From positions 1,817,587 through 1,881,586 of the forward strand of contig NZ_LT838272.1 in NCBI RefSeq assembly GCF_900176005.1: a stretch of 64,000 nucleotides of DNA, given 5' to 3'. This DNA is from Thermanaeromonas toyohensis ToBE (lineage in GTDB: Bacteria > Bacillota > DSM-521 > Neomoorellales > Neomoorellaceae). A program made the position numbers and the translations under genes. Positions 14,879 to 38,139 of this stretch are shown piece after piece (position 1 is the stretch's first letter; each line of letters starts with the position of its first letter). Under the pieces are notes generated by a model. That model saw only the letters and a list, made by a program, of their open reading frames with translations, made no database searches and was not told where the DNA came from.

Positions 14879-14880
14879 AC

Positions 14881-16560: not shown

Positions 16561-16588
16561 AGCCTGCGACACAAGGGGGGAAGATATA

Positions 16589-17008
16589 ATGAAGAAAATA
16601 CGAGTACTCATTGCCAAACCGGGGCTAGACGGCCATGACCGCGGGGCCAAGGTTATAGCTCGGGCACTGCGGGATGCCGGCATGGAAGTAATCTATACAG
16701 GCATACGGCAAACACCAGAACAAATAGTAGCGGCAGCCATCCAAGAAGACGTAGATGTAGTAGGATTGAGCCTTCTCTCAGGGGCCCATCTGCATCTATT
16801 CCCTAAAGTAGTCAAACTCTTACGCGAACAAGTAGGAGATAAGGTGTTAGTGATCGGAGGTGGGATCATACCCGAGGAAGATATTCCAGTATTACAAGAA
16901 CAGGGTGTAGCAGCCATCTTTGGCCCAGGTACACCTACCAACGTTATCGTGGATTTCATCAAGGGAAAGGTGGGGGCTAGGGCGGAGGAAGAGATAGAAA
17001 AGGCTTAA
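16589..17008 (+). CDS. Methylmalonyl-CoA mutase, cobalamin-binding subunit
   Basis: This 139-residue flavodoxin-like B12 domain has the cobalt-ligating His in [12 protein letters not shown] (about residues 11-22), [13 protein letters not shown], and [13 protein letters not shown] ... IFGPGT, all canonical for base-off/His-on cobalamin binding. The frame is open upstream to 16511 inside the large-subunit gene, but AAGGGGGGAAG sits just before ATG 16589, which gives the standard protein start [12 protein letters not shown]. It pairs with the large subunit 28 bases upstream. Confidence 0.97.
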
Positions 17009-17093
17009 GATTGATGTAGTTTGTTGGCTGGTGGGGAGAGGTAAAGGAGTCTATCAAGACCGCTGGCGCAGTTAACAAAGGAGATGGATAGTA

Positions 17094-18095: not shown

Positions 18096-18486
18096 TCATA
18101 TTGGCATAGCGGTACCTAACCTACAAGAAGCCCTAAAATTTTACGAAGAGGTGCTAGGCCTCAAGTGCGAAGGAGTAGAGGAAGTAGCGGAGCAAAAGGT
18201 ACGGGTAGCCTTTTTGCCAGTGGGGGACAGCGAAATTGAACTGCTGGAATCCACTGATCCTGAGGGGCCAGTGGCCAAATTCATAGAGAGCCGGGGGCCA
18301 GGTATTCAGCATATAGCTTTAAGGGTTGATGATATCGAAAAAGCCCTGGCTGAACTGAAAGAAAAAGGTATTCGGTTGATCGATGAAAAACCTCGCTATG
18401 GTGCGGGTGGAGCAAAAATAGCTTTTATACATCCCAAAGCTACTAACGGGGTGTTACTAGAGATTTCCCAGCGCGAAAAGAAGTGA
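18076..18486 (+). CDS. mce: Methylmalonyl-CoA epimerase
   Basis: This 136-residue glyoxalase/VOC-fold protein interconverts S- and R-methylmalonyl-CoA. It has [23 protein letters not shown] with a metal His, [16 protein letters not shown] with the second metal His, and a C-terminal [14 protein letters not shown] with the Glu ligand. A GTG at 18070 is in frame, but GGAGGG at 18061-18066 is correctly spaced only for ATG 18076. It overlaps the end of meaB, so translation is probably coupled. Confidence 0.96.
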
Positions 18487-18498
18487 GGTTGGAGATTC

Positions 18499-20049
18499 AT
18501 GGCTATGGAGGAGCTTCTACAAGAACTAGAACAACGCTTAACCAAGGTTAAAGCTGGTGGTGGCGAAAAACGCATCGCCAAACAGCATGAGCAGGGCAAG
18601 AAGACGGCCCGGGAGCGCATCGAGACCCTTCTGGATCCAGGTAGTTTCCACGAGGTAGACGCCTTTGTGACACACCGCTGTACCCTTTTTGGTATGGACA
18701 AGACCGAGGCGCCTGGTGAAGGCGTGGTTACTGGTGTGGGTACTATCGACGGCCGGCCAGTAGCTATATTTGCCCAGGATTTCACCGTACTGGGCGGCTC
18801 TTTAGGGGAAATGCACGCCAAGAAGATATGTAAAATTATGGACCTCGCCATGAAAGTAGGCATACCCATAATCGGTTTGAATGACTCCGGTGGGGCTCGT
18901 ATTCAAGAAGGGGTAGACGCTTTAAGCGGTTACGGTCAGATTTTCTACCGTAATACCTTAGCTTCGGGTGTAGTACCTCAGATCGCGGCCATAATGGGGC
19001 CCTGCGCTGGAGGTGCGGTCTACTCGCCGGCGCTTATGGATTTTATCTTTATGGTCCAAGGTACCAGCGAAATGTTTATCACTGGGCCGCAGGTCATCAA
19101 AGCAGTAACTGGAGAAGAAGTAAGCGGTCAGCAATTGGGTGGAGCTCTGACTCATAACCAGGTGAGCGGGGTAGCCCATTTCGCAGCTGAGGACGAAGAA
19201 CATTGCTTTATGCTCATCCGTACCCTCTTAAGCTATCTTCCCAGTAATAACATGGAAGATCCACCTATCCAAGATACCGGGGATGATCCAGCCCGGGAAG
19301 AAGAAGAACTGCTTAATATTGTGCCGGCCGATCCTAACAAAGCTTATGATATGCGGGAGATTATCGTGCGGGCTGTGGACCAGGGTACCTTTTTTGAAGT
19401 CCAGCCCCTTTATGCGCCCAATATCATTACTGCCTTTGCTCGCTTAAATGGCCGAGCCATAGGTATCATAGCCAACCAGCCCAGGGTCATGGCCGGTTGC
19501 TTAGATATCAACTGTTCCGACAAGGCGGCCCGCTTCATACGCTTCTGCGATGCTTTTAATATACCCATTGTCAACTTTGTGGATGTTCCAGGTTTCTTGC
19601 CGGGGACCAACCAGGAGTATGGAGGCATTATACGACATGGGGCCAAAATGCTCCATGCTTATTCTGAGGCTACCGTACCCAAGATAACCTTAATAATACG
19701 CAAGGCATATGGTGGGGCCTATTTAGCCATGTGCAGCCGGGACCTAGGGGCGGATATAGTATATGCGTGGCCGTGCGCGGAGATAGCGGTGATGGGGCCG
19801 GAAGGCGCGGCCAATATAATCTTCCGTAAGGAAATTGAAGCGGCGGCAGATCCGCAAAAAGCTCGGCAGGAAAAAATAGAAGAATACCGTCGGCTCTTTG
19901 CCAACCCCTATGTAGCTGCCGAACGTGGTTACATTGATGCTGTTATCGATCCTCGCCAGACCAGAGGATATCTGATCCAAGCCCTGGAACTTCTAACAAC
20001 TAAACGGGAGAGCCGGCCGGCGAAGAAGCACGGGAACATCCCCCTGTGA
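18499..20049 (+). CDS. mmdA: Methylmalonyl-CoA decarboxylase alpha / propionyl-CoA carboxylase beta (carboxyltransferase)
   Basis: This 516-residue acyl-CoA carboxyltransferase has an N-half with [53 protein letters not shown] and a C-half with [20 protein letters not shown] and [13 protein letters not shown], the crotonase-like oxyanion holes. No biotin carboxylase gene is nearby, while mmdC, mmdB and gamma/delta-like genes are. It is therefore best read as the carboxyltransferase of a Na+-pumping methylmalonyl-CoA decarboxylase, transferring CO2 from methylmalonyl-CoA to biotin on MmdC. Confidence 0.94.
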
Positions 20050-20058
20050 GGTGGTAAC

Positions 20059-20409
20059 ATGCCCTATGCAGGATTGCTTACCTTGGCTGCTCTAGTGGTC
20101 ATGGGCATCCTTGTTGGAATGTGGAGCCAGCGGCGGGAACGCCAAAAAGGAGAGCAGGTGGAAGGGGGAGAAGAAGAACAAAAATTTGCACCCGCTGGAG
20201 AGGGTACAGTTGGAGGGAGCAGAACGGTTCCAAGTTTAGATCCCCAAATTGCAGCTGTAATAGCGGCTGCTGTAACAGCGGCTTCTGAAACTAGCGCTTT
20301 TACAGTTTGGACTCGCCCCGTGACTGCATCCAACCCCTGGGTCTTAAGCGGACGCCAGGAACTCCAAGCTACTCTACCACTTAACCTGAGATGGAGGTCA
20401 GTAAGATGA
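20059..20409 (+). CDS. mmdD: Methylmalonyl-CoA decarboxylase delta/gamma-like membrane anchor
   Basis: This 116-residue protein has one N-terminal membrane helix (about residues 4-22), then a charged linker rich in Arg/Glu/Gly and an Ala-rich segment. The C-terminal stretch has AFTVWTRPVTASNPWVLSGR, the kind of conserved tail seen in OadG/MmdD-like proteins that assemble the pump. It lies between mmdA and mmdC and its stop overlaps the mmdC start (ATGA). The role is probably to tether the soluble carboxyltransferase and biotin carrier to MmdB. A second, shorter OadG-like gene exists at 24823. Confidence 0.8.
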   Translation: MPYAGLLTLAALVVMGILVGMWSQRRERQKGEQVEGGEEEQKFAPAGEGTVGGSRTVPSLDPQIAAVIAAAVTAASETSAFTVWTRPVTASNPWVLSGRQELQATLPLNLRWRSVR

Positions 20410-20828
20410 GGAAAACGTACATCATCCATGTAAACGGCCAGCGTTTCGAAGTAACTGTAGAAGAAAAGAAGGAGGGAGGAGGTGGCCTTCAGGCGGTAAC
20501 AATTCCGGTTGTAACTGGAAGTTCTTCTTCGGCAACCCCTAGTCCTACGGTACCTGTTTCGCCGGCGGTCTCTGGTACAGCAGCTTCATCTCCTTCTACT
20601 CCTACGGCGGCTAGTGGTAATGTTATTACTGCTCCTCTACCCGGGAAAGTAGTGGCTGTAAAGGTAAAGGCGGGAACCCCAGTAAAGAAGGGACAAGTCC
20701 TATTGGTACTGGAGGCCATGAAGATGGAAAACGAAATTGTGGCTCCTGCTGATGGTACAGTACAAGAGGTCTATGTGAGTGAAGGTGCGAGTGTCAACGT
20801 GGGCGAACCCCTGCTGTCCTTAAGTTAA
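20406..20828 (+). CDS. mmdC: Biotin carrier protein of methylmalonyl-CoA decarboxylase
   Basis: This protein of about 140 residues has a short N-terminal beta segment (YIIHVNGQRFEVTVEE) and a flexible Ser/Thr/Pro/Ala linker (roughly 40-70). It ends in a C-terminal biotinyl domain with the LEAMKMENEI motif, where the Lys is biotinylated. The linker lets the carrier swing between MmdA and MmdB. The frame is open from 20391, but GGAGG lies 7 bases before ATG 20406, which also gives the ATGA overlap with the upstream gene. Confidence 0.95.
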   Translation: MRKTYIIHVNGQRFEVTVEEKKEGGGGLQAVTIPVVTGSSSSATPSPTVPVSPAVSGTAASSPSTPTAASGNVITAPLPGKVVAVKVKAGTPVKKGQVLLVLEAMKMENEIVAPADGTVQEVYVSEGASVNVGEPLLSLS

Positions 20829-20915
20829 AGAGACTAGGCGTTGCCCCTAACGACGCAGGCGAATGAAACGAAGGATAAAGGGCGGTAATTAGATCCTCAA
20901 AAGGAGAGAGGATTC

Positions 20916-22121
20916 ATGGAAAAAGCCTTGCTTGGTGTAAGGGTCATAGATCTCACCCGTGTACTTGCAGGGCCCTTCTGCACTATGATTTTAGGGGATC
21001 TAGGAGCCGATGTAATCAAGATTGAGGCGCCGGAGGGAGACGAATCTAGGAACTATGGTCCCTTTGTCAAGGGTGAGAGCGCCTATTTTATGAGTATCAA
21101 CCGCAACAAGCGGAGCGTGGTACTCAATCTTAAGGAACCTAAAGGAGTAGAGATATTCAAGAAGCTAGTTCAGAAGGCGGACGTACTGGTAGAGAACTTT
21201 CGGCCAGGCACCACAGCTAAACTTGGCATTAGCTATGAAGACCTTCAGCCGCTTAATCCACGGCTAATCTATGCTTCCTGTTCTGGTTTTGGCCAGACCG
21301 GTCCCTACCGGCTGCGTCCGGCTTACGATATTATCATACAAGCGATGGGGGGGATCATGAGCATAACTGGCCATCCAGGGGGAGAGCCCACGAGGGTAGG
21401 GGCATCCATAGCGGATATAACAGCAGCTCTTTTTACTGTTATTGGAATTTTAGCTGCTTTAGCGGAGCGGGAACGGAGTGGAAGAGGGCAATATATAGAC
21501 ATAAGCATGTTAGATTGTCAAGTAGCGATTCTAGAAAATGCCATTGTACGTTACAGCACAGGAGGTGAAGTACCGAAACCTATAGGAAACCGACATCCGT
21601 CCATTACACCCTTTACAGCTTTAAGAACCCAGGATGGATATGTGATCATCGCTGTAGGAAATGATAACTTGTGGCGTAGGTTCTGCCAGGCTATCAAACG
21701 TGAAGATCTTATTGACGATCCACGGTTTAAAACCAATCCTTTACGCACGCAAAACTGGGAAGAACTCTATGCTATTTTACGTTCTGTATTCAGCCAGTAT
21801 ACCACTGCTGAGGCGCTAGCTATTATTGAAGCTGCTGGAGTACCCTGTGGTCCGTTACAGGATATAAGCCAGGTCTTCCACGATCCCCAAATACGTCACC
21901 GAGATATGATAGTCCCGGTAGAACACCCAGTGGCGGGGGTCGTATGGATGGCTGGCACACCCCTTAAGCTTTCCAGAACACCAGGAAATATAACTAAGCC
22001 GGCTCCTACATTAGGGCAGCACACATACGAGGTACTCCAGGAGATTGGCTATAGCGAAGCTGAACTTCAAGAACTAGAGGCGCAAGGGGTGATCACGCCA
22101 GCACAGAAGAAATCTAAATAA
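20916..22121 (+). CDS. CaiB/BaiF (class III) CoA-transferase
   Basis: This 401-residue family III CoA-transferase has VIDLTRVLAGPFCTMILGDLGADVIKIE at the N-terminus (about residues 10-37), RNKRSVVLNLKEPKG, and RGQYIDISMLDC, whose Asp is the expected acyl-carrier nucleophile (near 190). It moves CoA between carboxylic acids. Between mmdC and a MatC-type carrier, it is a good candidate for activating an imported dicarboxylate such as succinate, methylmalonate or malonate (inference). It starts at ATG 20916 behind AAAAGGAGAGAGG. Confidence 0.92.
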   Translation: MEKALLGVRVIDLTRVLAGPFCTMILGDLGADVIKIEAPEGDESRNYGPFVKGESAYFMSINRNKRSVVLNLKEPKGVEIFKKLVQKADVLVENFRPGTTAKLGISYEDLQPLNPRLIYASCSGFGQTGPYRLRPAYDIIIQAMGGIMSITGHPGGEPTRVGASIADITAALFTVIGILAALAERERSGRGQYIDISMLDCQVAILENAIVRYSTGGEVPKPIGNRHPSITPFTALRTQDGYVIIAVGNDNLWRRFCQAIKREDLIDDPRFKTNPLRTQNWEELYAILRSVFSQYTTAEALAIIEAAGVPCGPLQDISQVFHDPQIRHRDMIVPVEHPVAGVVWMAGTPLKLSRTPGNITKPAPTLGQHTYEVLQEIGYSEAELQELEAQGVITPAQKKSK

Positions 22122-22188
22122 TTTACGATTAACAGGATATTCATAGCAAGATAAGATACCAGATATTTCAAAAAGGAGGGTGTTTTAG

Positions 22189-23553
22189 GTGACCATAGCA
22201 GCTTTGTTATCTTTGGTAGCCCTAGCGATAGTTATTATTGTCAGTTGTTTTCGGGAGGAGTGGAATCCGGGGCTGCTTGCTATTGCCGCTGCCCTTATTG
22301 TAGGTGCAGGTTGGGGTGGATTAAAGGGCGGTGATATATTAAAATACTGGCCTACATCTTTGTTCATGATACTGTTAGGCGTAACCTTCATGTTTAGTTT
22401 GGCGCAGGAAAATGGAACCTTAGAGAAGCTGACTGCCTACGCCGTACGCCTGGCTAGAGGTAACACTGCTTTGATTCCGTGGATTATCTTTGTGATAGTG
22501 GTTATTCTTACCACCATCGGTCCTGGCAATATCGCTGCGACGGCCTTAGTGGCTCCTTTAGCTATGGCCATTGCTGGTCGCATCGGAATAAGTGCGTTTT
22601 TAATGACGCTTCTGGTAGTCGGTGCAGCTAACGCTGCTTGCTTTTCACCCTTTGCCCCGACTGGTATTATTTCCATGGGGCTTATTTCCAAAATGGCTCC
22701 CCAGCTAGGTATCAATCCCCAGGATATACTAGGAATAGAGTGGAAGGTTTACTGGAACTCCATGGTAGCCCAGGGCATCACCAATATCGGAGGTTTCCTG
22801 CTTCTAGGCGGGCTTGCCTGGATGCGAAGGCAGCGGGGCGCTTCTTTAAACATCGATGAGATTGCTCCACGACCCGAACCTTTTAACCGTCAGCAGTGGA
22901 TTACACTTATTGCTATTATTCTCTTCATTGTTCTAGTTTTAGCACCTGGGTTTCCAGGGGCCAAAGCTGTTTTACCCAAATGGGCCCTCAACATGTTCTC
23001 AGATGTTGGCGCTATAGCTTTTATACTGTCGGGTATTTTGATCCTGTGCAACGTAGCTAGTGTTAAGGAAGCAGTGAAACGCGTCCCATGGTTCGTCCTA
23101 CTTCTAGTATGCGGGGTTACAGTCCTTATTGAGGTTATGGACAAAACAGGAGGCTTAAACGTACTAGTTAATTTAATTGGTGCTATTTCTACGCCTCTTA
23201 CTGTGCATTTCTGGGTTGCTTTGATAGATGGAGTTATTTCTGCTTATTCTAGCTCTTCTGGTGTTGTCATGCCCATGTTCTTACCCCTTGTTCCTGGTTT
23301 GCTGCAAAAGCTTGGTTTGATGGGTATACCTGAGCAGGTACACCATGCAGTAGCCTTGATTTCTAGCGTTAACGTTGGTGCTCATCTAGTAGATACCTCA
23401 CCGTTATCTACTTTAGGGGCTCTTTGTATAGCCTGTGCTGGTGAACACGAAAATAAGGCTAAATTGTTCCGTAATCTTCTGATTTGGGGTTTGTCCATGT
23501 CAGTAGTGGGCGGTATTGTCTGCCTGTTATTCTTTGGTATTTTAGGTCTATAG
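22189..23553 (+). CDS. MatC-type dicarboxylate carrier (SLC13/ion-transporter superfamily)
   Basis: This 454-residue polytopic membrane protein has about 11-12 hydrophobic segments. The N-terminus (EEWNPGLLAIAAALIVG, then WPTSLFMILLGVTFMFSLAQENGTLEKL) matches the MatC N-terminal domain of malonate/dicarboxylate carriers. It also has TTIGPGNIAATALVAPLAMAIAG and a Ser-rich YSSSSGVVMPMF re-entrant-like motif. It probably imports a C3/C4 dicarboxylate with Na+. It is flanked by a CoA-transferase and MmdB, which suggests substrate supply to the decarboxylase. It starts at GTG 22189 with GGAGGGTG. Confidence 0.82.
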   Translation: MTIAALLSLVALAIVIIVSCFREEWNPGLLAIAAALIVGAGWGGLKGGDILKYWPTSLFMILLGVTFMFSLAQENGTLEKLTAYAVRLARGNTALIPWIIFVIVVILTTIGPGNIAATALVAPLAMAIAGRIGISAFLMTLLVVGAANAACFSPFAPTGIISMGLISKMAPQLGINPQDILGIEWKVYWNSMVAQGITNIGGFLLLGGLAWMRRQRGASLNIDEIAPRPEPFNRQQWITLIAIILFIVLVLAPGFPGAKAVLPKWALNMFSDVGAIAFILSGILILCNVASVKEAVKRVPWFVLLLVCGVTVLIEVMDKTGGLNVLVNLIGAISTPLTVHFWVALIDGVISAYSSSSGVVMPMFLPLVPGLLQKLGLMGIPEQVHHAVALISSVNVGAHLVDTSPLSTLGALCIACAGEHENKAKLFRNLLIWGLSMSVVGGIVCLLFFGILGL

Positions 23554-23575
23554 CTTAGAAAAAGAAGGAGTTAGA

Positions 23576-23596
23576 CGGGGCGGGCGGACCGCCCCG
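23576..23596 (+). other. GC-rich intercistronic hairpin
   Basis: CGGGGCGG (23576-23583) pairs with CCGCCCCG (23589-23596) around a 5-base loop between the MatC and mmdB genes. No U-run follows, so it is more likely an mRNA-stability or processing element, or a weak pause site, than a full terminator. Confidence 0.5.
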
Positions 23597-23644
23597 CAAG
23601 ACTTAAAAATATAGCAGTTCATCTAAAGAGATTGAGGTGATACT

Positions 23645-24760
23645 ATGCAAGAGCTTTTGATGGGCATAACTGGACTTACGCCCCAGCAAGTTATCATGTT
23701 TGTGATTGGCGGTATACTGATCTACCTTGCTATAGCTAAAGACTATGAACCCTTGCTGCTGTTACCCATAGGCTTTGGCGCCATTCTAACCAACATTCCT
23801 TTTTCTTCAGCAGTAGGTGAGGAAGGGTTTCTGACCGTTCTACTTCATGGAGGTATTCTAAACGAGCTGTTTCCTATTTTAATCTTCATAGCTGTAGGAG
23901 CCATGTGCGATTTTACCCCTCTTTTGCGTAATCCCCTCATGATGGTCTTTGGGGCGGCAGCCCAATTTGGTATTTTTGCTACGATAGTAATAGCAGCTCT
24001 TTTAGGATTTGACCTAAAGGAGGCAGCTTCCATAGGTATTATAGGAGCGGCGGACGGGCCTACCACTATTTATGTGGCCACCAAATTTGCTCAGCACCTC
24101 TTGGGTCCCCTTTCTGTAGCTGCCTATTCCTACATGTCCCTGGTGCCCATCATTCAGCCGCCGGTGATAAAGCTTTTAACTACCAAGAAAGAACGTATGA
24201 TCCGTATGCCCTATCGAGAAGGGAAACCGGTGTCTAAAACAGTCCGGATTTTATTTCCCATTGTTGTTACCGTTGTGGCTGGGATCATCGCTCCCATCTC
24301 AGTAGCCCTTATTGGCTCCCTCATGTTTGGTAATCTTTTACGGGAAGCTGGGGTAGTGGAGCGGCTGGCTAAAGCAGCTGAAAACGAGTTAGCCAACCTA
24401 GTGACCTTGCTCTTAGGTATAACTATTGGCTCTACTATGGAAGCTAGCGCTTTCTTAAACCTAAAAACCCTCATGGTTATGGGTTTAGGGTTAGTAGCCT
24501 TTATTTTTGATACTGCTGGTGGAGTGCTTTTAGCCAAGTTTCTTAACCTTTTCTTAAAAGAGAAGATCAATCCCGCTATAGGTGCGTGTGGTATTTCTGC
24601 TTTTCCTATGTCTGCTAGAGTAATATCTAAGCTAGTATTAAAGGATGATCCTCATAATTTTGTTATCATGCATGCTATAGGAGCTAACACATCTGGGCAG
24701 ATTGGGTCCATTATAGCTGGTGGATTGGTTTTGGCCTTAGTGCCTGCACTGCTGGGATAG
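23645..24760 (+). CDS. mmdB: Na+-translocating decarboxylase beta subunit
   Basis: This 371-residue integral membrane subunit of the OadB/MmdB/GcdB family decarboxylates carboxybiotin and exports Na+. It has GFGAILTNIPFS, the conserved IGIIGAADGPTTIY segment with the Na+-site Asp, SYMSLVPIIQPPVIKLLTT, and C-terminal KLVLKDDPHNFVIMHAIGANTSGQIGS. The length is typical for the clostridial short form. It starts at ATG 23645. It is separated from mmdA-D-C by the CoA-transferase and carrier genes, so the pump operon is interleaved with substrate-supply genes. Confidence 0.96.
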   Translation: MQELLMGITGLTPQQVIMFVIGGILIYLAIAKDYEPLLLLPIGFGAILTNIPFSSAVGEEGFLTVLLHGGILNELFPILIFIAVGAMCDFTPLLRNPLMMVFGAAAQFGIFATIVIAALLGFDLKEAASIGIIGAADGPTTIYVATKFAQHLLGPLSVAAYSYMSLVPIIQPPVIKLLTTKKERMIRMPYREGKPVSKTVRILFPIVVTVVAGIIAPISVALIGSLMFGNLLREAGVVERLAKAAENELANLVTLLLGITIGSTMEASAFLNLKTLMVMGLGLVAFIFDTAGGVLLAKFLNLFLKEKINPAIGACGISAFPMSARVISKLVLKDDPHNFVIMHAIGANTSGQIGSIIAGGLVLALVPALLG

Positions 24761-28058: not shown

Positions 28059-30038
28059 GTGAAGCTAAGATTTACCCAGACCATGTTCGGGCGCTTGCTG
28101 ATATGGTTTTTAGTTGTATCCTTTGTACCCCTCGTAGGGGTTAGCTTTATTAATTATTATATTACCCGCAGTCAAATTGTTGCCCAATGTAAACAGAATA
28201 TGATACATAGTGTTACCTTGACTTCAGGAGCAATCGAAGCTTGGTTAAATGAGAAAATTGTCTGCTTACAAGAGTTAGGTAAAAATCCAGTCTTCCAATC
28301 AGGCGATAAAGAACAGATTATGGCTTTTTTAAAAAGCATGAAACAGGCTGTCCCTGAAGCAGAACTCATTTTATGGGCCGGTAGCGATGGACAATCGGTT
28401 AATTCTATGGGTGCCACTCCTAGTATAAAAGATCGCGAATACTTTCAGGAGGCCATTCAAGGTAAGATAAGCGTATCTAACCTTTTAATTGCCAAAACAA
28501 CAGGTAACAAGATCATTATAATAGCGATACCAGTTAGAGTACCTGGTGGTAATTCGGTGCTGGCTATGTCAATTAGGACTGATGTCTTAACTGATATGGT
28601 AGCCCGCACTAAGTATGGGAACAAGGGATACGCCTATATGATCGATCGAACCGGTGTGGTCATGGCCCATCCTGATGAGAAGATGGTCATGAACGAGAAC
28701 TTGACCCAGAGCAATTCCGAAAGCCTAAAATCTATTGCTGAGAAGATGGTGCAGGGTGAAGAAGGGATAGGTGAGTACACCTGGGAAGGTGTAGAGAAAC
28801 TAGTGGCCTATGCGCCGGTGAAGATAAGCGGTTGGTCTATAGCCCTGGCAGCCGAGACCAGCGAGGTTTATGGGCCGGTGTACAACATGGTGCATTTTAG
28901 TCAACGTGCTGCTCTTCTTATGGCCCTCCTAGCTGTATTGTTAGCCTTCGCGGTGAGTCGGCAGTTCTCTGGGCCTATCTTGAAGATAGCCGAGCAGGCC
29001 AATACACTGGCCACAGGCGACTTGAGGGTGGCTATTGCTACTAGCTTTTCTGGGGAACTCGGTATTTTAGGCCGTGCACTAAAGAAGATGATCGATAATA
29101 GTAAAACTATCTTGACTTATATTAACCAAGCTGCAGAGGACCTAGAGGTAGCCATCCAGGAAATTTCTCAGGCTGCTACCGATACAGCTAGGGCAACGGA
29201 GCAGGTAACAGAAAATATAAATCAAATTTCAGCAGGTGCCCAGGAAATGGTTAAGAGCACCAGCCATATAAGCAGTGCAGCAGAAGAAACAGCCGAACAG
29301 ATAGCTGCTCTGGCAAGAAATGTGGAACGGATAGCTGGGCAGACAGGGCAAACCCTTCAACGTACTGAGGAGGGCAAAAATATAATGCAGGCCCTGGACC
29401 AGAAGAATGAGGAGACCCTAAGAAAAGCGGGTATGGTTCAGGAAGCCATGGCGCGCCTAGCAGACCAAGCCCAAAGAATAAGAGGCATAACGGATATTAT
29501 CACTGGTATAGCAGAACAAACTAATTTGCTAGCTTTAAATGCGGCTATTGAGGCAGCCAGAGCCGGCGAGGCTGGCCGAGGCTTTGCTGTGGTAGCCGAA
29601 GAAGTAAGAAAGTTAGCTGAAGCCTCTAGCCAACAGGCTGCGGAAATAGCCAGGGTTGTGGTAGAAGTAACTGGGGATGTGGAAAGAGCTGTCCAGGCAA
29701 CGCAGGAAGCTACTCGCCTGGTGAAGGAACAAGCGTGTATAGCTGAAGAGGCGCTACGTTATTTTGAAAGTATCGCAAGGGGGTCACAGGAGGTAGCCGA
29801 GCTGTTACAGGAAGTGGAAGGCCAGGCCAAGACCGTAATGGAACAAGCCCAGAAAGTAAGTTCGGCCATAAATGATATCGTAGCCACGTCTGAAGAAAGC
29901 GCAGCCTCCACAGAAGAAATAGCGGCTTCAGCTCAGCAGATGAGCGCTGCAGCTCAAAATATAAGTGCTAGGACAAAGGATTTAGTTAAGCTTATGGAAA
30001 AACTCAAAGAACAAAGCCAAAGGTTTATTCTTACATAA
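28059..30038 (+). CDS. Methyl-accepting chemotaxis protein with extracellular Cache domain
   Basis: This 659-residue receptor has a first membrane helix at about residues 13-33 and an extracellular dCache-type sensor at about 35-280 ([33 protein letters not shown]). A second helix at about 285-303 is followed by HAMP, then a long coiled coil with the conserved hairpin tip [20 protein letters not shown]. The start is GTG 28059 with AAAGGAGG about 12 bases before. Cache domains often bind carboxylates or amino acids. With dicarboxylate genes on both sides, a C3/C4 acid is a reasonable ligand guess. Confidence 0.93.
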
Positions 30039-30062
30039 GAATATGGAGATACTCTTCTGGCC

Positions 30063-31469
30063 ATGGGATACGATCTTACAGCAAAGCATGTGGTTGCTGC
30101 TGTTTTGACTTTGATCGGTGTTGCCTTGGTAGGAAAGTATGCAGGAAGACACATCCGGGGCTCGGCGGACTTTTTGGTAGGGGGACATAAAGCAAACGCC
30201 CTTATTGTGGCTGGTACCATTGTGGGCACCCTAGTGGGAGGTGCCTCCACTATTGGTACTGCCCAGATGGCTTACCTTTACGGTTTTGCCGCCTGGTGGT
30301 TTACTCTAGGGGCAGGCATCGGTTGTCTATTTTTGGCTCTTTTTTTTGTAAAACCGCTCTATCAAGGCCAGAAAGACACAGTACCAGAGATATTGATGGC
30401 TGAATTTGGCCCCGTTTCTGGTACTGTATCTACCATATTTGTTTCTTTGGGCATATTTTTGAATATTGTAGCCCAGGTCCTTTCGGCTATTGCCCTGTTA
30501 ACCACCATGTTTAAAATCTCGCCCTTACCTGCTGCTTTTTTGTCTCTTTTACTTATGGCCTTCTATGTTGCTTTTGGGGGTATATGGGGAACAGGCCTGG
30601 TAGGTATAGTTAAGCTATTTCTTATATATATAGCCATGCTCAGTGCGGGGCTTATGGCTTGGATGTGGGGCGGAGGTTGGGCCGGATACCAGGCCTCGTT
30701 TCCAGCTTATCCATATTTTAGCTTTTTCGGCCGGGGTTTCTGGCAGGATTTTGCCAGCGGTTTTTCCCTGATCATCGGCGTTTTGTCTACCCAAACCTAT
30801 ATTCAGGCTGTGGTTGCAGGAAAGAGCCTAAACCACGCTAGGTTAGGGGCGATACTAAGTGCGATGCTTATCCCACCTATTGGTTTAGCAGGTATTTTTG
30901 TTGGTCTATATATGAGAATACATTTTCCCGCTATCGATTCTGCAGCGGCTTTTCCTCTTTTCATCTTAACCCATATAAATCCGTGGCTAGGTGGGGTTAT
31001 TCTGGCTACGCTCTTGATAGCGGTAGTAGGTACAGGAGCTGGTCTGACGCTGGGTATCAGTACCATTCTGGTAAAGGATATCTATAAGCTTTACTTAGAT
31101 AAAAAAGCCAGCGATGTTACCCTTTTAAAGGCTTGTAGATTTATGATTTTGGTTATCTTGGCCCTTACACTTTTATTTATCACTGGCAATATCAAATCGC
31201 TGGTACTTAAATGGAGCTTCATGTCCATGGGATTAAGAGGGGTAACAGTTTTTCTACCCCTATGTGTGGCACTTTTTGCTAAGGGCAAAGTGGATAGGAA
31301 AGCAGCAGTTATATCTATGGTTTTGGCCCCCCTATCTATGTTGGCAGGGAAATTCTTTTTACGGGTTGATTTAGATCCCCTTTTCTTGGGGGTATTAGTA
31401 AGCTTTCTTATTATTAGCTGTGGTTATGTAATACACCGTATATCCTACCTTTCTAAAAGGAACACCTAA
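30063..31469 (+). CDS. Sodium:solute symporter (SSS family)
   Basis: This 468-residue protein has about 13 hydrophobic helices of the LeuT fold. It has an N-terminal GSADFLVGGHKANALIVAGT and GGASTIGTAQMAYLYG, matching SSS carriers such as PanF/PutP relatives. It starts at ATG 30063, 25 bases after the MCP stop, so the chemoreceptor and carrier are probably co-transcribed and concern the same solute. The substrate is unknown; a monocarboxylate such as propionate or acetate is plausible. Confidence 0.9.
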   Translation: MGYDLTAKHVVAAVLTLIGVALVGKYAGRHIRGSADFLVGGHKANALIVAGTIVGTLVGGASTIGTAQMAYLYGFAAWWFTLGAGIGCLFLALFFVKPLYQGQKDTVPEILMAEFGPVSGTVSTIFVSLGIFLNIVAQVLSAIALLTTMFKISPLPAAFLSLLLMAFYVAFGGIWGTGLVGIVKLFLIYIAMLSAGLMAWMWGGGWAGYQASFPAYPYFSFFGRGFWQDFASGFSLIIGVLSTQTYIQAVVAGKSLNHARLGAILSAMLIPPIGLAGIFVGLYMRIHFPAIDSAAAFPLFILTHINPWLGGVILATLLIAVVGTGAGLTLGISTILVKDIYKLYLDKKASDVTLLKACRFMILVILALTLLFITGNIKSLVLKWSFMSMGLRGVTVFLPLCVALFAKGKVDRKAAVISMVLAPLSMLAGKFFLRVDLDPLFLGVLVSFLIISCGYVIHRISYLSKRNT

Positions 31470-31640: not shown

Positions 31641-31762
31641 GGCAAAAAGGAAGAAGCCACTTTACTTGTGAGAGGATAAATGGGCTTTATCCTCTAGTAA
31701 AACAGGTAAAGCCTGGCGTAGAGGATCTGATTAGTTCATGGTCCTGTATGCCAGGTTTTTTA
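31641..31762 (+). ncRNA. Structured leader RNA copy 3 with intrinsic terminator (candidate riboswitch)
   Basis: It has the same plan as the copies at 12591 and 13211 but with different bases in the helices. GCCA is at 31656-31659. P1 is TTACTTGT (31662-31669) with ACAGGTAA (31702-31709). P2 is AGAGGATAAA (31671-31680) with TTTATCCTCT (31686-31695), and the internal loop is G / AGTAAA. The terminator is GCCTGGCGTA (31711-31720) with TATGCCAGGT (31747-31756), then T5-6. TGGC (31714-31717) can instead pair with GCCA. Helix-preserving substitutions relative to copies 1 and 2 are strong support for a real fold. It ends 66 bases before the fumarate reductase flavoprotein gene. Confidence 0.8.
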
Positions 31763-31827: not shown

Positions 31828-33543
31828 ATGGAAATTCTTACCCACGATCTCATCATCCTTGGCGCAGGACTTGCTGGGCTTAGGGCAGCCATTGAAGCAG
31901 CCAGGGTAAGCCAGGGCCAACTCGACATAGCAATAGTAGCTAAGACTCAGCTTGTACGGCCCCATTCTGTCTGCGCCGAAGGTGGTACAGGAGCAGTAAT
32001 AAGGCCCGAGGAGGGAGATAGCCCAGAACTTCACGCCTGGGATACAGTAAAGGGGAGTGATTTCTTAGCCGACCAGGATGCTGTAGAGTTGTTTGTCCAG
32101 ACCATTCCCCAAGAAATCCTGCAGCTTGAACACTGGGGTATACCCTGGTCTAGGCGAAAGGATGGAAGGATCGACCAGCGCCCCTTTGGCGGCCATAGCT
32201 TCCCGCGGGCGGTTTTCGCCGCAGATAAGACAGGTTTCTTTGAAGTCCACACCCTCTATGACACATTACTTAAATACCCTAGGGTTACCAAATATGAAGA
32301 ATGCATGGCCACCTCACTACTAGTGGAGGAAGGCAAGTACTGTGGTCTTACCGCCATAGATCTAAAGAGCGGAGAGTTTTTAGCCTTTCGTTCTAAAGCC
32401 CTAATCATTGCCACAGGCGGGGCCTGCCGGATATATGGCTTTACCACTTACAGCCACACCGTAACTGGGGACGGCATGGCCATAGCCTACCGAGCGGGAC
32501 TACCCTTAAAAGACATGGAATTTGTTCAATTTCACCCTACGGGGCTTGTCCCTTCGGGCATTCTCATTACAGAAGCGGCCCGTGGGGAAGGAGGATACCT
32601 CATCAACAACCTAGGTGAACGGTTTATGCAAAGGTATGCCGAGAAGATGATGGAGCTTGCCCCACGGGATATTGTGTCCCGTTCAGAGATGTTAGAGATC
32701 GAGGCGGGCAGGGGCTTTCCAGGACCCCAAGGATTAGACTACGTACACTTAGATTTAAGGCACTTGGGTCGAGAGAAAATAAACGAAAGGCTTCCCCTCA
32801 TAAGGGAAGTAGCCATAAAATTTGCTGGGCTAGACCCTGTAGACAAACCTATTCCTGTAAGGCCAGTAGCCCACTATTCCATGGGGGGCATCCACGTAAA
32901 TAAGGAAGGCGCCACACCAATAGAAGGTATCTGGGCAGCAGGTGAAGTAGCCTGCGTATCCATCCATGGAGCAAACCGGCTAGGCACTAACTCTACAGCC
33001 GAATGCCTGGTCTGGGGAGCTATTACTGGTAAGAAAGCGGCTTTACATGCTATGAAGGTATCATCCTTACCTGAAGTACCCAAAGAAAAAGCCCGTACTG
33101 AAGAACACCGGGTCATGGAAGAAATATTCCAGCGCAAGGGTACCGAAGACCTCTACACTATAAGGAAAGAACTCCGTGAAACCATGGATACGCATGTAGG
33201 AGTATTTCGCACTAAACAAGGATTAGAAAAGGCGTTAACACAGATAAAAGAACTAAAAGAACGGCTAAAAAAGTGCAGTCTGAAAGACCAGAGCAGAATA
33301 TACAACACTGATCTAGTATCTTATCTCGAAATGGAAAACATGGTTGAACTAGCTGAAGTCATAGTCGCAGGCGCCCTAGCCAGAGAAGAATCCCGGGGAG
33401 GCCATGCAAGGCGCGACTTTCCCCAGAGGGATGACCAGAACTGGCTAAAACACACCCTAGCTTACCATACCCCTTCAGGTCCAAGACTAGAATACATCCC
33501 CGTAAACATAACCATCTGGAAACCTACCGAGAGAAAATACTAA
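31828..33543 (+). CDS. sdhA: Fumarate reductase/succinate dehydrogenase flavoprotein subunit
   Basis: This 571-residue flavoprotein has the FAD dinucleotide fold LIILGAGLAGLRAAIEA (residues 7-23), the HSVCAEGGTGAV region with the likely FAD-linking His, EFVQFHPTGL and LITEAARGEGGYLIN in the active site, and AHYSMGGIHVN. It interconverts succinate and fumarate at the membrane with SdhB/C/D. An AGAGGAGG site lies about 15 bases before ATG 31828, which is longer than usual. First gene of the operon behind leader RNA copy 3. Confidence 0.96.
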   Translation: MEILTHDLIILGAGLAGLRAAIEAARVSQGQLDIAIVAKTQLVRPHSVCAEGGTGAVIRPEEGDSPELHAWDTVKGSDFLADQDAVELFVQTIPQEILQLEHWGIPWSRRKDGRIDQRPFGGHSFPRAVFAADKTGFFEVHTLYDTLLKYPRVTKYEECMATSLLVEEGKYCGLTAIDLKSGEFLAFRSKALIIATGGACRIYGFTTYSHTVTGDGMAIAYRAGLPLKDMEFVQFHPTGLVPSGILITEAARGEGGYLINNLGERFMQRYAEKMMELAPRDIVSRSEMLEIEAGRGFPGPQGLDYVHLDLRHLGREKINERLPLIREVAIKFAGLDPVDKPIPVRPVAHYSMGGIHVNKEGATPIEGIWAAGEVACVSIHGANRLGTNSTAECLVWGAITGKKAALHAMKVSSLPEVPKEKARTEEHRVMEEIFQRKGTEDLYTIRKELRETMDTHVGVFRTKQGLEKALTQIKELKERLKKCSLKDQSRIYNTDLVSYLEMENMVELAEVIVAGALAREESRGGHARRDFPQRDDQNWLKHTLAYHTPSGPRLEYIPVNITIWKPTERKY

Positions 33544-33633
33544 AGAAAACCCAAGGAGCCCTAAGCTCATGAAAATGAGTAAAGTTCCAAAACAGAAAAA
33601 AGCCCACAAAACGTAAACGAGAAGGTGAAGATT

Positions 33634-34059
33634 ATGCAACGTTACCATAACCGTCTGGGGATAAAAGGATGGATTTATGGAGGCCGCTATAGCCTAGAAC
33701 GTTACCTTTACACCCTGCACCGTATAACCGGCCTAGGCCTCATCCTCTACCTCTTTTTGCATATCTACGTAACTGCGGCACGTCTTTATGGAGCCAGTGC
33801 CTGGGAGAAGACCATGGCTCTCCTTTCAGGGCCAGCCTTTAAACTGGGCGAATATATACTCATGGCAGGGGCCATATTCCATGCGGCCAATGGCCTGCGC
33901 CTTATTATCATCGAACTAGGGATGTGTATAGGCAAACCCCAGCGCCAGGAATATCCCTATGTTTCTTCTATAAAAAGACAACGCCCTCTTATGATTTTAC
34001 TTATGCTTATCACGATCCTCCTTCTACTAATAAGCGGACTCGACTTCTTTATAATTTAA
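33634..34059 (+). CDS. sdhC: Succinate dehydrogenase/fumarate reductase cytochrome b anchor, subunit C
   Basis: This protein of about 141 residues has three membrane helices (about 26-47, 68-90, 111-133 from the ATG). His residues in LHRITGLGLILYLFLHIY and AGAIFHAANGLR are probable haem ligands. It carries the quinone site with the next subunit. GTG 33625 is in frame, but ATG 33634 gives the better spacing from GAAGGTG and the more usual protein start. Confidence 0.85.
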   Translation: MQRYHNRLGIKGWIYGGRYSLERYLYTLHRITGLGLILYLFLHIYVTAARLYGASAWEKTMALLSGPAFKLGEYILMAGAIFHAANGLRLIIIELGMCIGKPQRQEYPYVSSIKRQRPLMILLMLITILLLLISGLDFFII

Positions 34060-34128
34060 CGAAGCTACTCTTACCGAGCCCCAAGATAATCTTTAAGCCC
34101 CAAAATTGAGAGTAGGAGGCAAAAAACC

Positions 34129-34497
34129 TTGCGGGAAGCACATTACTGGCTACTCTCCCTTATAGCTGCCGCCTGCCTTCTAATTCTTTTAGGCTTACAC
34201 CTTTTCCTTATGCATCTTAACACCCTGGCAGCTTACCTAGGCCTAGCTCCTCAGGATCCACTGGAGTACACCGCGGTTATGGCTAGGGGGAAAAGCTTAG
34301 GTTGGGTAGTAGGTTACCTAGCCCTGCTGGGTTTAGCTCTCTATCATGGTCTCTACGGGTTACGTTCTATACTTAGTGAGATTATATATCCTAGGATAGA
34401 CCACCTGCTCACTCTAACTATAACGGCCTTGGGCCTTATAGCCTTTACCTTAGGAACTTACGTCGTCATTATCACCTACATTATGGAGGGAATATAA
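34129..34497 (+). CDS. sdhD: Succinate dehydrogenase/fumarate reductase membrane anchor, subunit D
   Basis: This 122-residue protein starts at TTG 34129 behind AGTAGGAGG. It has three hydrophobic helices, with His in LLGLHLFLMHL and ALYHGLYGLRS as candidate haem ligands. It pairs with SdhC to anchor the enzyme and bind quinone. Its stop overlaps the sdhB start (TAATG). Low sequence identity is normal in this family; the assignment relies on position, helices and His placement. Confidence 0.78.
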   Translation: MREAHYWLLSLIAAACLLILLGLHLFLMHLNTLAAYLGLAPQDPLEYTAVMARGKSLGWVVGYLALLGLALYHGLYGLRSILSEIIYPRIDHLLTLTITALGLIAFTLGTYVVIITYIMEGI

Positions 34498-35312
34498 TGT
34501 CTACCTTTAAAATCCAGAGGTACAATCCTGAAAAAGGCGCTAAACCCTACATGCAGACCTATCAAGTACCTATAAAGCCTGGCATGAGCGTTTTAGACTG
34601 CCTTTTTTACATTAAAGAAAACCTTGATGCTACTTTAAGCTTTCGAGCTTCCTGCCGTATGGGTATTTGTGGTTCATGCGCCATGTACATCAACGGCCTA
34701 CCGAGGCTGGCCTGCGAAACCCAAGTTAGGTCTTTACACACAGACACCATAGAGATAAAACCTCTGCCCAACTACGAGATTATAAAGGACCTAGTAGTAG
34801 ACCTAACACCTTTATTCTATAAACACCAGAAAGTAAAACCGTGGATCATTACCTCTGATCCCTTGGAGCTCGACCGTCCTACCAAGGAATACTATCAATC
34901 TCCGGCCCAGCTTGAGAGCTACTTACAATTCGCCTACTGCTTAAAATGCGGTATATGCCTTTCTGCCTGTCCAACAGTAGCCACCGACGAGGAATTTTTA
35001 GGGCCACAAGCCCTGGCCCAAGCCTTCCGGTACAGCTCCGACAACAGGGATAACGGCTTTAAGGAACGTATCTCCGTAGTGGATACCCTACATGGCCTCT
35101 GGCGTTGCCATATGGCTGGCGCCTGCGCCGAAGTTTGCCCCAAAGGAGTAGACCCTGCCCTAGCTATACAACTTATGAAACGCCAGGCTATTTTCGGTCA
35201 GAAAAAAGAGCAGACCAGGCTATTAGAAGCTCCACTGGAAGCAACCACTAAACCCGGTATACCTAAAGCCCCAGAACCCACTGTAAAAAAGAAGACTGTA
35301 AAAAAGAAGTAA
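34497..35312 (+). CDS. sdhB: Succinate dehydrogenase/fumarate reductase iron-sulfur subunit
   Basis: This 271-residue protein has a [2Fe-2S] domain with CRMGICGSCAMYING and a later Cys in LPRLACE (about residues 53-75). The C-terminal ferredoxin domain has CLKCGICLSACPT (about 148-160) and CHMAGACAEVCPKGVDP (about 202-218), for [4Fe-4S] and [3Fe-4S] centres. It passes electrons between SdhA and the anchors. The last 20 or so residues are a Pro-then-Lys tail ending TVKKKTVKKK, beyond the conserved domain. Confidence 0.95.
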   Translation: MSTFKIQRYNPEKGAKPYMQTYQVPIKPGMSVLDCLFYIKENLDATLSFRASCRMGICGSCAMYINGLPRLACETQVRSLHTDTIEIKPLPNYEIIKDLVVDLTPLFYKHQKVKPWIITSDPLELDRPTKEYYQSPAQLESYLQFAYCLKCGICLSACPTVATDEEFLGPQALAQAFRYSSDNRDNGFKERISVVDTLHGLWRCHMAGACAEVCPKGVDPALAIQLMKRQAIFGQKKEQTRLLEAPLEATTKPGIPKAPEPTVKKKTVKKK

Positions 35313-35437
35313 AAACCTAAAGATAAACAAGGTAAAATCGAGAGGAAGACGAATTAGAAAGAAGGGATTAAAATAAGGAAAAACCCTAAGGCAAACTTTT
35401 AAAAGAAAAAGCCACTAACTAAAGAGGGTGATAATCA

Positions 35438-36280
35438 ATGAAAGAGATACACGTAAGCCAGATAGCCGACACAGTAGAGCGCCTCTGTATAGAAGCTTGC
35501 ACCGTTTTAAGCGAAGACTGGTGGCAGGCTATGGACAAGGCAATAGCTAAAGAAGAGTCACCTTTGGGCCGAGAGATTTTGGAGCTTCTTAAGGAGAACG
35601 CTAGGCTGGCAGCTTCTACTAGTGAGGCCATTTGCCAGGACACGGGTATAGCCGTAGTCTTTCTAGAGATAGGGCAAGATGTACACATAACCGGGGGAAG
35701 CCTATATGAAGCCATAAACGAAGGAGTACGTAAGGGGTACACCCGTGGCTACCTCCGGAAGTCAGTGGTGAAAGACCCCTTAATCCGGCAAAATACAGGT
35801 GACAACACCCCTGCCATAATCCACACAGAAATAGTTCCTGGCTCTAATCTAAAAATAACTGTAGCCCCCAAGGGCATCGGCTCCGAAAACACCTCAGCCC
35901 TAAAAATGCTAAAGCCGGCCGACGGCAAAGAAGGTATTATCCGCTATGTACTAGAAGTAGTAGAACAAGCAGGGCCTAACCCTTGCCCGCCTATAATAGT
36001 AGGGATAGGGTTGGGAGGCAACTTTGAAAAAGCAGCCCTCTTAGCTAAAAAGGCCTTATTACGCCCTTTAGGGGAAAGACATCCTGCTCCCCATATATCT
36101 GAACTAGAAGAGGAACTCCTAAAGCGCATCAACGCTACAGGCATTGGCCCCCAAGGGCTAGGCGGCCGTATCACTGCTTTAGATGTACACATAGAGACCT
36201 ATCCTACCCATATAGGGGGATTGCCGGTAGCTGTAAACATCCAATGCCATGCTGCCCGGCATGCGGAAGCTATCCTTTAG
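35438..36280 (+). CDS. Class I (iron-sulfur) fumarate hydratase, alpha subunit
   Basis: This 280-residue protein corresponds to the N-terminal domain of class I fumarases. It has ICQDTGIAVVFLEIG with a cluster Cys, TGDNTPAIIHTEIVPG, and ANPCPPIIVGIGLGGNFE-type C-half residues (here GPNPCPPIIVGIG) with another cluster Cys. With the beta subunit it hydrates fumarate to malate using an oxygen-sensitive [4Fe-4S] cluster. It is in line with sdhACDB (125-base gap) and the beta subunit 15 bases on. Confidence 0.95.
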   Translation: MKEIHVSQIADTVERLCIEACTVLSEDWWQAMDKAIAKEESPLGREILELLKENARLAASTSEAICQDTGIAVVFLEIGQDVHITGGSLYEAINEGVRKGYTRGYLRKSVVKDPLIRQNTGDNTPAIIHTEIVPGSNLKITVAPKGIGSENTSALKMLKPADGKEGIIRYVLEVVEQAGPNPCPPIIVGIGLGGNFEKAALLAKKALLRPLGERHPAPHISELEEELLKRINATGIGPQGLGGRITALDVHIETYPTHIGGLPVAVNIQCHAARHAEAIL

Positions 36281-36295
36281 CGAGGTGAACCTGGC

Positions 36296-36850
36296 ATGAA
36301 AAGGATTACCACGCCTCTTAACCCTGAGATTATACAAGAACTTAAAGCTGGGGAAAGGGTAAGCCTAAGTGGCGTAATCTATACAGCCCGGGACGCGGCC
36401 CACAAAAGACTAGTGGAGGCCTATCTGGCAGGAGAGAAGCTGCCTATAAACTTAGAAAACCAAATTATCTACTACGTAGGACCCTGCCCAGCTAAACCGG
36501 GGAAAGTGATCGGTTCAGCGGGTCCCACCACCAGCGGCCGGATGGACCCCTATACCCCTCTCTTAATCCGGGAACTGGGCCTAAAGGGCATGATAGGTAA
36601 GGGCAGCCGCAGCCAGGAAGTTATTGAAGCCATGGAAGAAAAAGGGGCAGTATATTTCTTAGCTATAGGGGGTGCCGGAGCCCTTCTCGCGCAAAAAATT
36701 AAAAAAGCCGAGGTAGTGGCTTACGAAGACTTAGGCCCAGAAGCCATCTACCGGCTAGAAGTGGAAGATTTTCCCCTGATAGTCGGTATCGACTGCCGTG
36801 GTAACAACGCTTATCTTGAGGGGAAGGCACGATACAGACTAGACACCTAA
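36296..36850 (+). CDS. Class I fumarate hydratase, beta subunit
   Basis: This 184-residue swivelling domain of the two-subunit fumarase has the conserved YVGPCPAKPG, SAGPTTSGRMDPYTP and MIGKGSRS motifs that bind substrate carboxylates. Residues IGGAGALLAQKIKKAEVVAYEDLG continue the family pattern. It starts at ATG 36296 with GCGAGGTG. It completes the fumarase with the preceding gene. Confidence 0.95.
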   Translation: MKRITTPLNPEIIQELKAGERVSLSGVIYTARDAAHKRLVEAYLAGEKLPINLENQIIYYVGPCPAKPGKVIGSAGPTTSGRMDPYTPLLIRELGLKGMIGKGSRSQEVIEAMEEKGAVYFLAIGGAGALLAQKIKKAEVVAYEDLGPEAIYRLEVEDFPLIVGIDCRGNNAYLEGKARYRLDT

Positions 36851-36915
36851 AAACAAGGAAGGGAAAGGATTGCTCCTTCAAAATTATTTTCGAGATTTTA
36901 GGAGGGAATACATAA

Positions 36916-38139
36916 ATGGACCTTCGCACTAAAGCCCTAACCCTGCACAAGGAAAACAAAGGGAAAATCGCCATCCAGAGCAAAGTAGCGGTCAAAAACC
37001 GGGAAGACCTAAGCCTGGCCTACACCCCCGGAGTGGCCGAACCCTGCAAAGAGATCCACCAGAACAAAGAACTCGTATGGGAATACACCTCCCGGGGCAA
37101 CCTCATAGCCGTAGTCACCGATGGAAGCGCTGTACTAGGCCTAGGAGACATAGGCCCAGAAGCCGCTTTACCTGTCATGGAAGGAAAATGCGTGCTCTTT
37201 AAAACCTTTGCTGGCGTAGACGCCTTCCCCTTGTGTCTTGCCACCAAAGACGTAGACAAAATAGTAGAGACCGTAAAGCTAATTTCCCCCACCATAGGTG
37301 GAGTTAACCTGGAAGACATATCCGCCCCCCGCTGTTTCGCCATAGAAGAGCGCCTTAAAAAAGAGACGGACATACCCATCTTCCACGACGACCAGCACGG
37401 TACAGCCATAGTAGTAGCTGCTGCCTTAATCAATGCCCTTAAAGTAGTAGAAAAAAAGATGGCTGAGGTAAAGGTTGTCATCAATGGTGCCGGCGCAGCC
37501 GGCATTGCGGTGACCAAGCTTCTTTTAGACATGGGAGCAGGGGATATAATTCTTTGCGACAGCAAGGGGGCCCTTTATAGAGGCCGACTAGAAGGGATGA
37601 ACCCTTACAAAGAAGAGATAGCCCATAAGACTAACCGGGAAGGAGCCAAGACTTTGCCTGAAGCCCTAAAGGGCGCCGATGTTTTCATAGGATTATCGGT
37701 AGGTGGAGCGGTAACCCAGGATATGGTAAGGAGCATGGCCAAAGACGCTATAGTGCTGGCCATGGCCAATCCTGTTCCTGAGATATATCCTGAGGAAGCC
37801 AAGTTAGCGGGGGCCAAGGTAGTGGGGACTGGCCGTTCGGACTTTCCCAATCAGATAAACAACGTTTTAGCTTTTCCTGGGGTTTTAAGGGGGGCGCTAG
37901 ATGTACGGGCACGGGACATAAATGAGAAGATGAAGATAGCTGCGGCCCATGCCCTGGCAGCCCTGGTGGACGAAGAGAGGTTGGGTCCTGATTTTATCAT
38001 CACGGATGTATTTGATTCCAGGGTAGCTCCTGCTGTAGCTGCGGCGGTGGCTCGCGCGGCCATGGAGAGCGGGGTAGCACGGGTAAAGAGGGACCCCAAG
38101 GAAGTGGAAGAGAATACTAGGAAGATTGTAGGAGTTTAG
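36916..38139 (+). CDS. NAD(P)-dependent malic enzyme (oxaloacetate-decarboxylating)
   Basis: This 407-residue protein converts malate to pyruvate and CO2 with reduction of NAD(P). It has AYTPGVAEPCKEIH with the catalytic Tyr, FHDDQHGTAIVVAAAL with metal ligands, the Rossmann site VVINGAGAAGIAVTKLL (about residues 187-203), and MANPVPEIYPEEA. It is the last gene before a strong terminator at 38196, so sdhACDB-fum-fum-malic enzyme is one transcription unit from succinate to pyruvate. Confidence 0.96.
   Translation: MDLRTKALTLHKENKGKIAIQSKVAVKNREDLSLAYTPGVAEPCKEIHQNKELVWEYTSRGNLIAVVTDGSAVLGLGDIGPEAALPVMEGKCVLFKTFAGVDAFPLCLATKDVDKIVETVKLISPTIGGVNLEDISAPRCFAIEERLKKETDIPIFHDDQHGTAIVVAAALINALKVVEKKMAEVKVVINGAGAAGIAVTKLLLDMGAGDIILCDSKGALYRGRLEGMNPYKEEIAHKTNREGAKTLPEALKGADVFIGLSVGGAVTQDMVRSMAKDAIVLAMANPVPEIYPEEAKLAGAKVVGTGRSDFPNQINNVLAFPGVLRGALDVRARDINEKMKIAAAHALAALVDEERLGPDFIITDVFDSRVAPAVAAAVARAAMESGVARVKRDPKEVEENTRKIVGV

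Follow-up and report, generated by a model that had tools for sequence, protein, structure and literature searches.

The window analysed here is a continuous stretch of 64,000 nucleotides from Thermanaeromonas toyohensis ToBE. It contains three copies of a hairpin-forming element, each joined to an intrinsic terminator. Elements 1 and 2 flank a gene whose 120-residue product has DUF3870 as its one Pfam match, with element 2 starting 40 bases 3′ of the gene, and element 3 lies about 19 kb away from it. The features are as follows.

12476–12504, plus strand: promoter-like site 5′ of element 1, TTGACA-17-TATTCT with TG preceding the second hexamer (consensus match only)
12598–12658, plus strand: antiterminator element 1, the leader of the DUF3870 gene
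12650–12700, plus strand: terminator of element 1, the weakest of the three
12811–13173, plus strand: DUF3870 (PF12986) gene, 120 aa, Pfam 95 bits, E 3e-27, the sole copy in the genome and the candidate antiterminator protein
13214–13274, plus strand: antiterminator element 2, between the DUF3870 gene and the methylmalonyl-CoA operon
13267–13315, plus strand: terminator of element 2
13343–24760, plus strand: operon of element 2, probably a single transcript as judged from gene order; CoA transferase (13343), methylmalonyl-CoA mutase large (14881) and small (16511) subunits, MeaB (17094), carboxyltransferase (18499), biotin carrier (20391), CoA-transferase III (20916), dicarboxylate carrier (22189), Na+ decarboxylase beta (23645)
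31656–31717, plus strand: antiterminator element 3 (model R3, 59.0 bits, E 9e-16 in its own genome); outer stem GCCA 31656–31659 with TGGC 31714–31717, P1 31660–31669 with 31702–31711, P2 31671–31680 with 31686–31695
31712–31755 plus U-tract (to 31762), plus strand: intrinsic terminator of element 3, whose 5′ arm includes the TGGC strand of the antiterminator
31828–38139, plus strand: operon of element 3; frdA/sdhA (31828), sdhC (33625), a 122-aa ORF (34129), frdB (34497), fumarase alpha (35438), fumarase beta (36296), malic enzyme (36916)

Together, the three elements precede the DUF3870 gene and the whole propionate–succinate–pyruvate route. The first-pass annotation had placed copy 3 in front of a fumarate reductase operon, and the genes that follow (frdA, sdhC, frdB, both fumarase subunits and malic enzyme) bear this out. 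Its reading of the copies as leader RNAs also stands, but the first copy turns out to be the leader of a DUF3870 gene. An ISL3-type transposase gene (Pfam DDE_Tnp_ISL3; 11079–12404, minus strand) is located directly 5′ of the DUF3870 promoter region. Directly 5′ of element 3, the region 28059–31469 encodes a dCache-MCP chemoreceptor and an SSF symporter, which are possibly part of the same organic-acid response as the element.

Fold and covariation of the element

The fold common to the three copies is composed of a 4-bp outer stem (GCCA/TGGC), helix P1, an asymmetric internal loop of about 2 + 6 bases, helix P2 and a small apical loop. P1 contains ten pairs, P2 nine or ten, and the apical loop 4–6 bases; the intrinsic terminator starts inside or just past the last bases of P1. 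Folding z-scores of the three leaders, measured against dinucleotide shuffles, range from −4.7 to −6.5. When both strands of the window are scanned with a descriptor, the three copies rank at the top, with scores of 74.5, 70.1 and 63.1, and the next candidate scores 48.6. They are also the only strong covariance-model matches in the 3.33-Mb genome. BLAST with copy 1 against this genome returns copies 1 and 2 only, copy 3 being too diverged for the method.

The sequences quoted in the first-pass annotation are all present at their places, and its base-by-base comparison is correct. In copy 3, P1 is changed from TTGTTTGC/GCAAGCAA to TTACTTGT/ACAGGTAA and P2 from GTGAGTAAG/CTTACTCAC to AGAGGATAAA/TTTATCCTCT, with pairing kept in both helices. 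Across the copies GCCA is retained, as are the purine richness of the internal loop, the shortness of the apical loop and the terminator that abuts the element with its CCTGGC. GCCA and CCTGGC had been regarded as mere flanks beside a separate terminator; their conservation is confirmed, but they supply the two strands of the outer stem, so that the element is itself the antiterminator rather than a domain standing apart from the terminator.

Three copies cannot prove covariation, which is seen instead in 46 relatives from Bacillota. The element recurs in related genomes, and not one of the three outcomes that the annotation had named as refuting its reading was obtained. Because MAFFT on the three copies misregistered P2, model building used copies of equal length and, after that, covariance-model alignment; the first model (R1) was too narrow and placed the element in just 8 of 101 genomes. 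In the 46 relatives, 95% of 945 cells are paired, a figure inflated by the fitting of the alignment to the structure, of which the descriptor scan and direct folding are independent. Double-sided changes occur at 21 of the 22 pairs and number 256, compared with 68 in shuffles, and the covariation score is 0.717, compared with 0.28 for shuffled alignments and no more than 0.14 when the partners are slid. Pairing persists as the sequence diverges. G-U cells outnumber A-C cells by 119 to 18, indicating that the transcribed strand acts as RNA. The claim of a selected RNA fold, as opposed to a DNA repeat, is therefore upheld by these data.

Few bases are unpaired, and their conservation is weak. 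Preferred among them are an A preceding the 3′ strand of P1 (34 of 43) and a C at the end of the apical loop (27 of 36), and the apical loops of the relatives mostly have five bases with C last. Elements are seen in dozens of species with differing downstream genes. Rfam 15 (4227 models, gathering score) identifies two tRNAs only in the whole window, and with permissive E-values the three leaders, together with 16 relatives, give chance matches far under the thresholds. No Rfam family fits, just as the annotation had matched the copy to none of the leader classes it named. Literature searches, within the library covered, returned no publication on such an element or on DUF3870 function, and nothing relevant on an RNA motif associated with methylmalonyl-CoA mutase or propionate. 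One paper mentions DUF3870, in a study whose main subject is the neighbouring family DUF3869.

Overlap with the terminator

The TGGC tetramer forms the 3′ strand of the outer stem and is also located within the 5′ arm of the terminator. This double role is seen in 41 of the 46 elements, where one tetramer within the 5′ arm of the terminator is able to pair upstream as well as with the 3′ arm. The tetramers used are of ten kinds (e.g. TGGC, CAGC, GGCC, TGGT, CAGT and CGGT), and pairing with an element's own upstream partner has a mean of 3.67 of 4 pairs compared with 2.89 when partners are permuted (maximum of 3.20 in 2000 permutations). For all three leaders in the window, the nascent RNA preceding the terminator 3′ arm folds to the full antiterminator. 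In the complete RNA, the terminator is favoured by 3.6, 12.1 and 11.2 kcal/mol for elements 1, 2 and 3, respectively, which suggests that a stabiliser is needed for the antiterminator.

The antiterminator hairpin is thus mutually exclusive with the terminator, as in the RAT sites of the BglG/LicT proteins, and the assignment of the element as a cis-acting antiterminator and RNA switch is strongly supported. We consider it nearly certain that this is a real, undescribed and widespread terminator/antiterminator RNA.

In RAT/LicT antitermination, initiation is constitutive and termination is the default; a hairpin overlaps the terminator foot, and the regulator gene is a neighbour of its targets (PMC3369936, PMC9981650). 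The present elements share with the BglG–LicT–SacY systems a hairpin with asymmetric internal loop(s), a 3′ strand overlapping the terminator foot, a predicted default off state, a candidate regulator gene adjoining the target and a small putative regulon of catabolic operons (PMC3369936, PMC9981650). They differ from RAT in that the hairpin is longer, with a P2 that is separate and variable and an outer stem of 4 bp that covaries, and in preceding organic-acid operons where RAT targets are PTS sugar operons. DUF3870 contains neither a CAT nor a PRD domain. The protein-stabilised antiterminator proposed here, overlapping a terminator, also resembles those of the ANTAR proteins EutV and NasR (PMC3369936). 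ANTAR sites consist of two hairpins with A1 and G4 in their loops, however, whereas each of our elements is one compound hairpin whose loop mostly has five bases and ends in C. HutP is a small single-domain protein acting on the leader terminator of a catabolic operon, and the candidate DUF3870 would be alike in size, domain content and type of target, but is not matched by the HutP model in Pfam. Transcription-terminating riboswitches in Rfam use the same kind of alternative terminator/antiterminator pairing; in contrast to these, the elements match no family at threshold, and their tie to a trans-acting gene is not expected of a riboswitch.

Association with DUF3870

About 90 DUF3870 loci were gathered (90 scored by the descriptor; 92 rows in the tree). 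An element with its terminator is found near many of them, mostly 30–200 bases 3′ of the gene and sometimes 5′. Descriptor scores of at least 45 are reached at 39 of the 90 loci; the opposite strand of this DNA yields 5, and 90 shuffled sequences peak at 36. By tree row, the covariance model detects elements in 37 of 92 and the descriptor alone adds 15, in most major branches; about 40 of the 92 DUF3870 genes have no detectable adjoining element. Carriers include Thermanaeromonas, Moorella, Frackibacter, Thermotalea, Thermohalobacter, Dethiosulfatibacter, Alkaliphilus and Geobacillus thermodenitrificans.

Among 398 genomes sampled from the phylum, 54 encode DUF3870, and these include each of the 19 in which R3 gives a strong match (E < 1e-6; hypergeometric p about 1e-18). 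No DUF3870 was detected in the control genomes, one of which is that of a Bacillus subtilis laboratory strain. The models were trained on DUF3870-adjacent elements, which biases the adjacent-element count and leaves only the eight non-adjacent cases free of bias. In these cases, detected with model R2 (trained on adjacent elements only), the element lies away from the DUF3870 gene, and all eight genomes have DUF3870 (p about 7e-8), four of them belonging to one family so that the events are not all independent. Downstream of the non-adjacent elements are frdA (three genomes), methylmalonyl-CoA mutase, a CoA transferase, a TAT-type protein followed by fumarase, an SSF symporter and a citrate-type transporter. 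Genomes without DUF3870 give weak matches (E 0.001 or worse), and those inspected in G149, G332, G076, G242 and G180 have no correctly placed terminator; some fall inside coding sequence.

The downstream operons are species-dependent and include CoA transferases, the mutase, MeaB, carboxyltransferase, OAD beta, PrpF, an AMP-binding ligase, amidohydrolase, an enolase-type epimerase, an NMT1-like binding protein, DUF819 and several transporters. DUF3870 is the constant partner, the pattern expected of a regulator with its own site, as for BglG-type proteins and RAT.

Several individual loci show further arrangements. At 1501–2485 of locus L021 (genome G006), two tandem DUF3870 genes are each followed by their own element and terminator; this genome has a third DUF3870 copy elsewhere (L033). 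An element or element-like hairpin is positioned 5′ of the DUF3870 gene, like copy 1 of the window, in L108 and L109 (G223, G200) and in L027 (G044). Locus L017 (G016) contains a second, weaker element-like hairpin and terminator (2049–2109, plus strand) pointing away from the DUF3870 gene. Another element (L160; G003:C89:24769-24848) lies about 6.6 kb from the DUF3870 gene and 5′ of a gene that was judged by eye to be nitroreductase-like.

The AlphaFold model of DUF3870 is a confident single domain (pLDDT 90) with the order b-a-b-b-a-a-a. Comparison of this predicted fold with the PDB gives no significant match; the nearest structures are IscU/NifU-like domains and lipoate-ligase C-terminal domains, which are not known to bind RNA. 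No HutP, CAT or ANTAR structure is among the matches listed, an observation that excludes nothing. The best Foldseek match is IscU (E 0.01, TM 0.47; VIA-align Z about 8), and hhalign with NifU_N covers the same region in the same register at a non-significant E of 0.11. A conserved DUF3870 segment, GxIxDADCTLAT...G(Y)xL, is in register with GxIxDAxFKTFGC...GK of IscU, with the metal ligands mostly lost. Homology of DUF3870 with IscU is suggested by fold and register, at a level short of significance. On the predicted model, DUF3870 may be distantly related to the Fe-S scaffold fold and put to another use; the likeness would reflect a common arrangement, perhaps with remote kinship, and is not evidence of function.

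A candidate antitermination system

From the conserved fold, the way it excludes the terminator and its association with DUF3870, we propose a candidate DUF3870-dependent antitermination system, to which we assign a probability of roughly 0.73. We infer that DUF3870 binds the element RNA, that binding favours read-through and that the protein senses a signal. The nascent leader would fold into the outer stem, P1 and P2. Once transcribed, the terminator 3′ arm would reclaim the TGGC (or equivalent) strand, forming the terminator and stopping transcription, so that the default state would be off. DUF3870, responding to a metabolite or state, would bind the hairpin formed by P1, the asymmetric internal loop and P2 and hold the antiterminator, allowing read-through. 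It would control its own gene via element 1, with its leaky terminator, the propionate/methylmalonyl-CoA operon via element 2 and, acting in trans from 19 kb away, the fumarate reductase–fumarase–malic enzyme operon via element 3. Since the targets vary, the signal may differ between DUF3870 subfamilies.

The first-pass annotation had implied a metabolite riboswitch (succinate, propionate, CoA esters). In a switch of this kind, the internal and apical loops would bind a small molecule such as a CoA ester or dicarboxylate, and DUF3870 would simply be one regulated gene. Such a switch would use the same type of terminator/antiterminator platform and would account for the preferred unpaired bases, and in the family of the window genome and several relatives the genes concerned belong to one pathway. 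We nevertheless consider it unlikely. Some 2 + 6 internal-loop and 5 apical-loop bases, little conserved, are small for an aptamer; the downstream genes range from propionate metabolism to PrpF, ligase, amidohydrolase, epimerase and transporter genes while DUF3870 is constant; and elements distant from DUF3870 are confined to genomes that have it. The data agree better with an antiterminator that a protein stabilises than with an aptamer that binds a ligand. The association data would be the same if DUF3870 bound the RNA with the opposite sign, unfolding the antiterminator or favouring the terminator and so repressing its operons, as TRAP does, and the unaided formation of the antiterminator in nascent RNA is consistent with this. 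With the terminator already favoured by 3.6–12 kcal/mol, however, a repressor would have little to do, and the strong, covarying P1, P2 and outer stems are retained, as they should be were the hairpin the form that is recognised and active; repression by DUF3870 is distinctly improbable.

To our knowledge, few protein families act by holding an RNA antiterminator, and CAT, ANTAR and HutP were considered. The window genome encodes one protein of each type, so that a BglG/LicT-type CAT protein, an ANTAR protein or HutP could act on the leaders with DUF3870 as an accessory. The 3′ strand of P1, GCAGGCAAGACC, resembles what we take to be the RAT core, which is a lead only. Each of the three families is absent from some element-bearing genomes, CAT_RBD (PF03123) from eight (G001, G002, G006, G013, G055, G057, G063 and G099), ANTAR (PF03861) from G001, G044 and G057, and HutP (PF09021) from G044, G057 and G098. 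G057 lacks all three and has both the element and DUF3870. The gene adjoining the elements is that of DUF3870, and HutP and ANTAR are present in most element-free genomes, making control by a known antiterminator protein very improbable. HutP-family proteins occur in two thirds of the 101 relative genomes, with three or four copies in some (G100, G047), a spread wider than histidine utilisation alone would suggest. Finally, the copies might do no switching at all: each could be an ordinary terminator to which a hairpin has been added, or they could be repeats of a mobile palindrome. Element 2 lies 3′ of the DUF3870 gene and could be read as its 3′ end, and a transposase gene lies just upstream. 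This explanation is contradicted by the positions of elements 1 and 3 before genes, by outer-stem strands that covary with the terminator, by pairing kept despite sequence divergence and by the recurrence of the fold in dozens of species with differing downstream genes; we regard it as having a negligible chance of being correct.

DUF3870-dependent antitermination, as proposed here, would add one more family to the proteins that hold an antiterminator and would assign a function to DUF3870. Probably, DUF3870 is a new signal-responsive RNA-binding antiterminator family, whose fold is not known from other RNA-binding proteins, and its target a new covarying class of antiterminator RNA, the two together constituting a portable regulatory module that occurs across the Firmicutes and governs the catabolism of propionate, succinate and other organic acids. 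The element could serve as a probe for further operons under the same control. The methylmalonyl-CoA route is a key, energetically marginal path in propionate oxidation, and the proposed system would account for how some anaerobes turn it on.
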